A stretch of DNA of 64,000 nt from Fulvimarina pelagi HTCC2506 (GTDB lineage Bacteria > Pseudomonadota > Alphaproteobacteria > Rhizobiales > Rhizobiaceae). The position numbers and the translations under genes are program-made. Location: positions 3,504,432 through 3,568,431 of the forward strand of contig NZ_DS022272.1 of assembly GCF_000153705.1 (NCBI RefSeq), read 5' to 3'. The notes beneath the pieces are model-generated. The model was not told the origin of the DNA, ran no database searches, and worked only from the letters and a program-made list of their open reading frames with translations. Positions 53,296-56,767 of this stretch are shown one piece after another. Position 1 is the first letter of the stretch. The number at the start of each line of letters is the position of its first letter.

Positions 53296-53616
53296 TCGAC
53301 AGCAGGCGCAGTGCCAGACAGTTTTGAGTACCGGATGCAAGGCGCCAATCGGATGAGCCGATCGTGGCCGTGTGGCTCGTTTAAAGCAAAGAGAAGCGTC
53401 CGAGTGGTTGACGCACCGAAGTCAGACTGACACACGAGGGCAAATCCATACAGCGGGGAAATGGAAGCCTGTAATTATCGGGCACGCAAAGGGAAAATCG
53501 GGGACGTGTCCTCGTTCCGCTCCGACCGAATGATCCGACGTAAGGAGTCGCGGCGGGCGTCGAATGGAATTTTTCGATGGCGGGGATTGAATGAAGTTTT
53601 CAATTTTCCGTGGCTG

Positions 53617-53786
53617 AAATAACAAGAGAGCCGCACGGCCTGGAGGGGGATACGCCGTTGCGACTCTCTTGCATTTTCCAACGAGCGCTGGTCCTGGAGA
53701 GGGGGAAGAGGACCGGTGCGCTCTCAAGTATCGGCGGAAAAGCGGGGGACATGCTTTAAGGCCGAACCGACGTTTCAGCGTCGTTG
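53617..53786 (-). ncRNA. Candidate trans-acting small RNA with two C-rich-loop hairpins
   Basis: Minus-strand transcript, order 5-prime to 3-prime. First a short hairpin CGACG/CGTCG (plus 53768-53783). Then hairpin A: GAGCGC and GGTCCT arms (plus 53718-53723, 53709-53714) pairing with 53683-53688 and 53690-53695, loop CTTCCCCCTCTCC. Then hairpin B: 17-18-base imperfect arms (plus 53654-53671 with 53623-53639), loop GTATCCCCCTCCAG, followed by TTATTT (53617-53622). Loops exposing CCCCUCC are complementary to ribosome-binding sites. This plan recalls the alphaproteobacterial anti-Shine-Dalgarno sRNAs (CcsR/cuckoo, alpha-r families) with CCUCCUCCC loops. Ends are approximate; no expression evidence. 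Confidence 0.5.
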
Positions 53787-53791
53787 TGATA

Positions 53792-53821
53792 AAGATGCTA
53801 CGGCGGGAGCTTAAAATCAAG
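53792..53821 (-). promoter_or_regulatory. Possible promoter of the candidate small RNA
   Basis: Minus strand CTTGAT (plus 53816-53821), 18-base spacer, CATCTT (53792-53797). CTTGA-type -35 elements occur in RpoH-dependent alphaproteobacterial promoters, but the -10 match is weak. Confidence 0.3.
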
Positions 53822-53987
53822 CGCGGATTAGGCGACGGTGCGTCACATCCGCGTGAAAATGAATAAACGCAACAGAGCACGAAAGTGCTCCATGCATAGC
53901 CCCTTGAACATACGGGGAAATCTGCTGCTGCGTCGCGATAACGATTCCGATCGCTATCTCGGCGTTAGAATCGGATTGTGGCCAAAT

Positions 53988-54356
53988 TCAATCAAGAATG
54001 AGCGGATCCGCGCAGTTGTCCCCATCACCATAGCGCTCGATGATCGCGGATGACAGAAGATAGACTTCCGAGGGCGTCATATTGGCCATGCCGAATCCGT
54101 CGAACTGACTGTCGTCGACGTCGACGCGGCTCATCAGGACAACGCCCGAATGTCGCCCATCGCGGCGGATCGTCTTGAAGAGCTTATCGACCGTCTCCGC
54201 TTCCCCTTCGAGAATCTGCGTGATGATACGGCCATCATACGCGATCACGCCACGGATCCCACGCTTCTCGTTGCGCTTGCGCGCGTCTGCGACGAGCTCG
54301 CGAAAGGCCTTCGGATTCAGGTCGTTGGCGATACTGCTATAGGTGATATGCCGCAT
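53988..54356 (-). CDS. Minimal BLUF-domain blue-light sensor
   Basis: 122 residues, essentially the BLUF domain alone. The flavin-network residues are all present: Y6 (RHITYSS), N29 (RKRNEKRG) and Q47 (IITQILEGE), with a late Met in FGMANM. FAD binding and blue-light switching are therefore expected. No output domain is fused, so signalling must go through a partner protein. Start ATG 54356 is supported by a promoter whose start site would lie near 54423, ruling out an upstream GTG. Faces glcB divergently and ends at the sRNA-bearing gap. Confidence 0.88.
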   Translation of the reverse strand: MRHITYSSIANDLNPKAFRELVADARKRNEKRGIRGVIAYDGRIITQILEGEAETVDKLFKTIRRDGRHSGVVLMSRVDVDDSQFDGFGMANMTPSEVYLLSSAIIERYGDGDNCADPLILD

Positions 54357-54595: not shown

Positions 54596-56767
54596 ATGAC
54601 GGAAATGACGACGGTGAACGACCTCAAGGTCGCCACAAACCTGAAGACATTCATTGACGAAGAGGCACTCGCCGACACGGGCATCGCGCCCGATCAATTC
54701 TGGAAGTCCTTCTCATCGCTGCTCAACGATCTCGCGCCCAAGAATCGCGAATTGCTCGAAGTCCGCGAGGACATGCAGGCGAAGATCGACGAATGGCACC
54801 GCAGTCAGCGTGGCAAGCCGATCGACGCCGACACCTATCAGACCTTCTTGCGCGAGATCGGCTACATCGTCGCAGAGGGCGGCGATTTCGAGATCCAGAC
54901 CGCGAATGTCGATCCCGAGATCGCCACAGTGCCCGGGCCGCAGCTCGTCGTCCCGATAATGAACGCCCGCTATGTGCTCAATGCGGCCAATGCGCGCTGG
55001 GGATCGCTCTATGACGCGCTCTACGGCACCGATGCGATGGGGGACGAGCCGGAGGGCAAGGGCTATGACCGCGCTCGCGGCGCCCGCGTCGTCACCTGGG
55101 CGAAGAGCTTTCTCGACGGCGTAGCGCCGCTCGACCGCATCTCCCACATCGATGTCGAGCAATATATCGTTTCCGACGGCACGCTGATCGCCAAGTTCGG
55201 CGGTGGCAAGACCTCGCGGTTGAAGAACCCGCTCGCCTTCGTGGGATATTCGGGCGATTCGGAAAAGCCGTCCGCCATCCTTTTGCGGCACAACGGGCTG
55301 CATGTGGAGATCAAGGTCGATGCCGAGCACACGATCGGCAAGAACGACCGTGGCAACGTTGCCGACGTTCTCCTCGAATCGGCCGTCACAGCGATCTGCG
55401 ACTGCGAGGACTCTGTTGCCGCAGTCGATGCCGAAGATAAGACTTTGGTCTATCGCAACTGGCTCGGCCTGATGAAGGGCGATCTCACGGAGAGCTTCGA
55501 CAAGGGCGGCAAGTCCGTCACCCGCGCGCTCAATCCGGACCGCCAGTACACCGCACCGGATGGGTCGACTGTCACAGTCCCCGGCCGGGCGCTGCTCTTG
55601 GTGCGCAATGTCGGTCACCTGATGACCAATCCGGCGATCCAGCTGAAGGACGGCTCGGAAGCGCCGGAAGGCCTGATGGACGCGATGATCACCACGATGA
55701 TCGCCATCCACGATCTGAAGAAGATGGGCGGGGTGCGCAATTCGCGTTCGCGCTCGATCTATATCGTCAAGCCGAAGATGCACGGGCCCGACGAGGTCGC
55801 TTTTACCGACGAAATCTTCACCCGCGTTGAGCAGGCGCTCGGCCTTGATTCAAACACGGTGAAGATCGGGATCATGGACGAGGAGCGGCGCACGACGGTC
55901 AATCTCAAGGAATGCATTCGCGCCGCACGGCATCGGGTCTTTTTCATCAATACCGGCTTCCTCGATCGCACCGGCGACGAGATCCACACTTCGATGGAAG
56001 CGGGTCCCATGGTCCGCAAGACCGTGATGAAGGACCGCACCTGGATCAAGGCCTACGAAGACTGGAACGTCGATGTCGGTCTGGCATGCGGCTTCCGCGG
56101 CAAGGCGCAGATCGGCAAGGGGATGTGGGCTGCCCCCGCCAAGATGAACGACATGCTGAACCAGAAGGTTGGCCATCCTCAGGCCGGAGCGAACTGCGCC
56201 TGGGTGCCGTCGCCGACGGCAGCGACGCTCCATGCGACACACTACCACCGGGTGGATGTTCTCGCCTGGCAGGAGGCGATCGCAGCCAAGGGCCGTCGCG
56301 CGATCCTCTACGATCTGTTGACAATCCCGCTTGCCAACCGCGCCAACTGGCCGGACCAGCAGATCAAGGACGAGGTCCGCAACAACGCGCAGGGCATTCT
56401 CGGCTATGTCGTGCGCTGGATCGATCAGGGCGTCGGCTGCTCCACCGTACCAGACATCAACGATATCGGCCTGATGGAGGACCGCGCGACCTGCCGGATA
56501 TCGTCCCAGCACATCGCCAACTGGCTGCATAACGGAGTCGTTTCGGAAGACGAGGTGATGGCCGCGATGAAGGAGATGGCGAAGAAAGTTGACGAGCAGA
56601 ATGCTGGCGATCCGAACTACGAGAAGATGGACGGCCGCTTCGAGGACTCGATCGCCTTCAAGGCAGCCTGTGATCTCGTCTTCAAGGGCCGGGTCCAGCC
56701 TTCGGGCTACACCGAGCCGGTCCTGCATGCCCGTCGACTCGAGAAGAAGGCGCAAAAGGCAGCCTGA
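54596..56767 (+). CDS. glcB: Malate synthase G
   Basis: 723 residues, the usual length. Condenses glyoxylate with acetyl-CoA to malate (glyoxylate shunt and C2 use). Motifs: [14 protein letters not shown] (catalytic Asp/Glu region), [29 protein letters not shown], and the C-terminal catalytic [21 protein letters not shown] at good distance supports the ATG at 54596; TTG 54575 and ATG 54605 are alternatives. In a methylotroph-like organism it could also link C1/C2 flux, but no serine-cycle gene is seen here. Confidence 0.96.

Follow-up and report, generated by a model that had tools for sequence, protein, structure and literature searches.

A far-diverged member of the αr7 small RNA family with three C-rich loops, away from polA in Fulvimarina pelagi

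Introduction

The αr7 RNAs (RF02342) are presumably the RNAs named SmelC023, sra03 and smrC7 in Sinorhizobium meliloti, with which they have the number and the polA locus in common. What is quoted below from publications refers to the accessible parts of the papers cited. For SmelC023, 29 relatives have been described. Their loops are conserved and their stems vary, the last of their four hairpins is terminator-like, and the location is adjacent to polA (PMC3927594). αr14/NfeR1 is present at six loci in S. meliloti and is reported to silence several mRNAs with three identical anti-Shine-Dalgarno loops (PMC7143759). The polA-linked sX13 RNA of Xanthomonas has three C-rich loops and represses mRNAs with G-rich motifs, and Hfq is not needed. 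Its authors described αr7 RNAs as likewise having three stem-loops with C-rich motifs, with no sequence similarity to sX13 (PMC3771888).

The locus described here lies in a stretch of 64,000 nucleotides of Fulvimarina pelagi HTCC2506 (contig NZ_DS022272.1, positions 3,504,432 to 3,568,431), called the window, in which an original prediction had placed a candidate small RNA. New here is an αr7 branch under the Rfam cut-off with its own loop 3, its own upstream element and a changed neighbourhood.

Results

Hairpins of the minus strand

The hairpins are located on the minus strand in a gap of 692 bases between converging genes, as originally described; the gap is bounded by the end of tlpA (53295) and that of the minus-strand BLUF ORF (53988). 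Two strong hairpins with C-rich loops had been predicted, and both H2 (loop CTTCCCCCTCTCC) and H3 (loop GTATCCCCCTCCAG) were placed correctly (Table 1). Folding of the minus strand gave -86.7 kcal/mol for the whole region of 231 bases (z -6.45), and none of 200 shuffles was equally good. H3 folded alone gave z -6.70 (0/200 shuffles equally good). H2 folded alone was unexceptional, with a z of only -1.90 and 9/200 shuffles equally good. The fold of the same region on the plus strand was weaker (z -2.90, one shuffle equally good). Thus H2 and H3 are real hairpins, the fold of the whole region and that of H3 being beyond chance.

The stem of H2 consists of 6+6 bp with an internal loop, as had been stated. 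That of H3 has 17 bp with a single bulged base in the 5' arm, where 17-18 bases with a mismatch and a bulge had been given, and the two hairpins are separated by 11 bases and not 12. The run UUAUUU is present after H3 as described. The count of two hairpins with C-rich loops was too low: a third one, H1, with the loop AUGUCCCCC, lies 5' of H2 and is itself preceded by a small 5' hairpin, H0, both of which had been missed. The three C-rich loops are almost entirely unpaired in the ensemble predicted for the 172-nt RNA, the mean unpaired probability of the H2 loop being 0.998.

The hairpins are part of an sRNA gene of about 172 nt on the minus strand. Its transcription and both ends are predicted, the start from the promoter-like element and the end from the hairpin and the U-containing tail. 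H3 was not called by the terminator scan, which takes loops of 3-8 bases; the H3 loop has 14.

Table 1. Predicted features of the αr7-type locus, in positions of the window
Feature	Position	Strand	Basis
Upstream inverted repeat TCAC-N6-GTGA (TCACGCGGATGTGA), candidate regulator-binding site	53843..53856	-	kept in 14/14 branch loci
Promoter-like element CTTGAT-N17-GCATCT	53793..53821	-	sequence and spacing compared with relatives
αr7-family sRNA gene, about 172 nt	about 53617..53788	-	RF02342 match, fold, covariation
H0, small 5' stem CGACG/CGUCG	about 53768-53783	-	predicted folds (4 bp in one), branch alignment
H1, loop AUGUCCCCC at 53744-53752	53731..53765	-	predicted folds, loop conservation, covariation
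H2, loop CUUCCCCCUCUCC at 53696-53708	53683..53723	-	unpaired loop, conserved motif, covariation
H3, loop GUAUCCCCCUCCAG at 53640-53653, tail UUAUUU; terminator-like	53617..53671	-	z -6.70, covariation

Assignment to the αr7 family

At the cut-offs of Rfam itself, the sole match in the window was a tRNA elsewhere. At a permissive threshold, αr7 (RF02342) matched 53625-53786 over the full length of the model (1-145 of 145) with 43.8 bits and an E value of 4.3e-7. This score is lower than the gathering cut-off of 60 bits for RF02342, which is an inclusion threshold and not an anatomical feature. At E 0.1 or better, the genome has no other match to αr7. The next Rfam matches in the window were CcsR1 (17.9 bits, cut-off 65.3, E 0.13) and αr14 (15.3 bits, cut-off 58.8, E 2.7), and with the latter score membership in αr14 was rejected. 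Judged by the full-length match, the covarying stems and the conserved C-rich loops, the locus is a far-diverged member of αr7 and not a new family.

The original prediction had pointed to the cuckoo/CcsR or alpha-r kind, perhaps as an undescribed family. The alpha-r half of this holds, in the form of a diverged member of a known family, and is in line with the position of the promoter-like element and with the neighbours in relatives. In the cuckoo/CcsR RNAs (CcsR1, RF02791), too, C-rich loops are carried by consecutive hairpins, but their loop motif CCUCCUCCC was found in 0/42 loci; with this and the low CcsR1 score, cuckoo/CcsR membership was rejected. The window RNA shares with αr7 the full-length covariance match, the order of the hairpins, the C-rich loops and one main copy per genome, and its last hairpin may likewise be a terminator. 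It differs in its score (43.8 against 60 bits), its position off polA and the TCAC-N6-GTGA upstream, as well as in the sequence of loop 3 (CCCCCUCCAG) and in having a longer stem in H3. αr14/NfeR1 (RF02344) also has several hairpins with C-rich loops, but the NfeR1 motifs are identical and found at six S. meliloti loci, whereas the window has three differing loops in one gene. With sX13 there are three C-rich loops in common and, for αr7 relatives, a gene beside polA; unlike αr7, sX13 is gammaproteobacterial, and the two are without sequence similarity.

Matches to αr7 at E 0.1 or better were obtained in 32 of 61 genomes, over the cut-off in 21. By a manual count of rows, these 32 comprise 31 of the 37 genomes of the same family and one, with a weak match, of the 24 elsewhere in the order. 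When more genomes of the family were drawn, a match at E 0.01 or better was obtained in 126/151, and 99 were over the cut-off. Single weak matches mean little, since control genomes also gave matches below the cut-off (2/14 in the 61-genome search and 1/14 in the 151-genome search). Because the window's branch falls under the Rfam cut-off, annotation at the standard threshold leaves it blank.

Covariation of the stems and conservation of the loops

The window locus and 29 αr7 loci were aligned with MAFFT, leaving out matches without a returned locus. RNAalifold on these 30 loci gave 26 consensus pairs, 24 of them with compensatory change, so that the covariation across relatives that had been proposed as a test is borne out. 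Paired cells amounted to 95.0% against 83.7% in shuffles, and the covariation score was 0.453, a value that 0/500 shuffles reached, against 0.241 in shuffles. Structures slid along the alignment paired at most 47.9% of cells, a comparison that favours the counted structure because it was derived from the same alignment. Changes on both sides of the pair were seen at 9/9 pairs of H1, 5/6 of H2 and 10/11 of H3. When only the 14 loci of the window's branch were aligned, 15 of 33 predicted pairs had compensatory change, and at the position of H0 there were 6 pairs, 4 with compensatory change. Our own covariance model, R1, scores the window locus at 92.6 bits, which is not an independent value as this locus is in the training set. 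R1 also gave weak antisense matches at four loci (16.6-27.5 bits), which we interpret as the hairpins read in reverse complement.

Among the longer loop motifs, GUCCCCC of loop 1 is the most conserved (40/42 loci). CCCCUC occurs in all 42, and the H2 loop motif CCCCUCUCC in 34. CCUCC is found near the 3' end in 35 loci and absent in the other 7; this anti-Shine-Dalgarno core is therefore not universal. C-rich loops that are conserved on stems varying by compensatory change, a feature of αr7, are thus found at the window locus as well.

Predicted action of the C-rich loops

The reading that we prefer, with a probability of roughly 0.7, is that of a single αr7-type sRNA gene with its own promoter, the RNA of about 172 nt repressing mRNAs with G-rich starts by means of its three C-rich loops. 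Transcription would begin at the promoter CTTGAT-N17-GCATCT and the RNA would end at the terminator-like H3. The stems would hold open the loops AUGUCCCCC, CUUCCCCCUCUCC and GUAUCCCCCUCCAG, and these would repress the translation of several mRNAs by pairing with G-rich stretches at their translation starts or close to them. By analogy with the RNAs described above, repression of several mRNAs through loop pairing is probable. Fold, covariation, loop conservation, promoter position and αr7 homology were computed; from there we infer transcription at this locus, both RNA ends, loop-mRNA pairing, repression and an inducing signal.

There is complementarity between CCUCC of loop 3 and the Shine-Dalgarno core, and between loop 1 and a plain G-tract; the loops may therefore serve different targets. 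Exact 10-base complements were counted in the window's own genome. Loop 1 had 7 sites against 1 in the reversed control; loops 2 and 3 showed no excess (3 against 4 and 3 against 6). Each of these counts includes the sRNA gene itself, which leaves 10 other sites in total. One of the 10, GCGGGGGACA, is a perfect complement of loop 1 and is immediately followed by the ATG of a PAS/GAF sensor frame of 500 codons (L058 1501-1513, G000:C4 near 2063637). It is only a lead, as inspection of the five best relatives showed no conservation of the G-run at this position; in two of them the start could not be identified.

The same αr7 RNA could act mainly in another manner, as a sponge for protein or other RNAs or as an mRNA stabiliser. 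This alternative survives best and is in our estimate unlikely. Loop 1, with GUCCCCC in 40/42 loci, is not complementary to the standard Shine-Dalgarno core, as would suit such a role, but loops 2 and 3 do resemble the anti-Shine-Dalgarno sequence. Precedents exist for both modes: the C-rich-loop sRNA PmaR of Agrobacterium controls ampC positively (PMC6234868), whereas for NfeR1 and sX13, the two best analogues, repression through C-rich loops has been reported (PMC7143759, PMC3771888). The analysis brought up no protein partner. PmaR was also considered as a possible αr7 RNA and rejected: according to the accessible text it has a single spoon-like hairpin and is confined to Agrobacterium and one strain of Rhizobium (PMC6234868).

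αr7 is widespread in the family, yet its target is named in none of the papers found. For αr7, Smr7C and SmelC023 alike no target appeared in this literature, and loop-dependent repression by αr7 was shown in no paper found; these were mostly non-subscription papers, in their accessible parts, and the silence is weak evidence of absence. Comparative searches for targets could usefully begin with the loops common to both branches and with the natural case away from polA.

The window's branch and its upstream region

Within αr7, the window's branch is marked by GUCCCCCGCU, invariant in 14/14 loci, and by CCCCCUCCAG in loop 3 (14/14 branch loci against 3/28 others), and it further differs from other αr7 RNAs in its longer H3 stem. 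TCAC-N6-GTGA is present upstream in all 14 branch loci and in 0/5 and 0/24 other αr7 loci, 29 entries in which one place was entered twice (L049/L079). In 20 of the 24, TCAC-N7-TTAC is found instead, and TTGTAAT often follows it. By its sequence, the TCAC-containing element ahead of the promoter looks like a regulator site and is a candidate for one. ChvI was tried as the upstream regulator and rejected, as the motifs TTGC-N3-GCAA and N-GCC-N8-GCC in the accessible text of PMC9731502 misfit by eye. The 14 branch loci were chosen after their sequences had been seen, and the choice was therefore checked with a separate tree of PolA fragments. In this tree of 37 loci, which is unrooted and has a bootstrap not fully settled, a single branch with a support of 100/100 sets the 14 branch genomes apart.

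The promoter-like pair of the original prediction was confirmed, with CTTGAT at 53816-53821 and CATCTT at 53792-53797 of the minus strand, and relatives have a CTTGA-type element at the same place. CTTGA is upstream in 36/42 loci. The form CTTGA-N18-CATCT is found in 8/14 branch loci; many other αr7 loci have CTTGAA-N17-CCAAAT or similar. No promoter was called at CTTGAT-N17-GCATCT by a generic sigma-70 scan. A review table gives RpoD and RpoH1/2 for SmelC023 (PMC7143759), and we think that the window promoter might be of the heat-shock type. In their accessible parts, PMC3687685 and PMC3616915 contain nothing on this sRNA.

A terminator-like hairpin, its tail rich in T, was seen at 53872-53893 on the minus strand, in the stretch that separates the sRNA promoter from the BLUF gene. 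It is the only terminator-like site called in the gap, and it could separate the BLUF and sRNA transcripts.

Genomic neighbourhood

A blastn search, made without the Rfam model, gave five relatives with 75-82% identity (E 1.1e-44 to 4.7e-13). One link leads to genome G028 (E 1.9e-27, 81%), where polA and an M20 peptidase gene flank the RNA (L005). polA is also found in L004 and L006, and the M20 peptidase gene in L002 and L003. In L002, from a genome of the same genus (G001), BLUF and glcB are on the other side, as in the window; in a third member of the genus (G002, L043) an AMP-binding enzyme is at that place. At the window locus itself the neighbours are BLUF-glcB and, on the opposite side, tlpA. 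Comparison of the neighbours indicates that the polA side was exchanged in the genus and the peptidase side in the window species, around a conserved RNA.

The tlpA/BLUF setting, which had been proposed as that of the homologues, is not the usual one, as relatives are mostly beside polA. In single-linkage clusters of frames, the polA cluster holds 23 of the 30 loci compared. Among 13 further loci, polA was found at 13 and the M20 peptidase gene at 10 within the stretch taken, and ten blastn or αr7 relatives of the window's branch with fetched flanks had polA. The polA gene of the window's genome is at C4:2744426, about 0.8 Mb off, and the 3.5 kb around its first domain had no R1 match up to E 5. 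A. tumefaciens C58 is a published exception to polA adjacency (PMC3927594). In the PolA tree the window genome groups with G002 and not with G001, which shares BLUF-glcB. A search of the genome contigs for BLUF homologues gave one distant locus.

These neighbourhoods bear on the idea that the structure is a mere, possibly bidirectional, terminator between the converging tlpA and BLUF genes with no trans-acting product. Convergence of the genes, foldability of both strands and the U-containing tail on the minus strand would fit, but in relatives polA is read away from the RNA and the M20 peptidase gene downstream runs in the same direction, which does not place it between converging genes. The loops, moreover, are conserved, the stems covary, the promoter-like element keeps its place, and H3 escaped the terminator scan; a terminator alone is very improbable. 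A small coding gene, such as the plus-strand ORF 53669-53866 (65 aa) or the minus-strand ORF 53422-53880 (152 aa), is scarcely credible: there are open frames on both strands, one plus-strand frame clusters with a frame of L002, and in Brucellaceae a small ORF has been predicted antisense to the SmelC023-type sRNA family (PMC3927594), but 0/6 frames stay open across the H2-H3 core throughout the 14 branch loci (suggestive, as frames were named per locus, unaligned), spacer lengths differ by numbers that are not multiples of three, and the stems change by compensatory pairs.

The preferred reading of an αr7-type repressor can be extended. The branch may be a separately evolving regulator with its own loop 3, H3 stem and operator, the RNA having left polA in the genus with selection acting on the three C-rich loops and not on the link to polA; αr7 and sX13, as polA-linked RNAs with three C-rich loops, would then belong to one functional class that broadly represses G-rich translation starts and extends across Proteobacteria. 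As a whole we consider this extension speculative and rather doubtful.

In genomes G022, G023, G026, G033, G062, G083, G084 and G148, a second, mostly weaker αr7-like match was obtained (22.9-34.3 bits), and G109 has two αr7-like matches of 52.9 and 46.8 bits. Such second matches are possible paralogues or could be due to chance. Beside the window locus, the short gene for a BLUF blue-light sensor (53988-54347, minus strand) is next to that for malate synthase G (54599-56767, plus strand).
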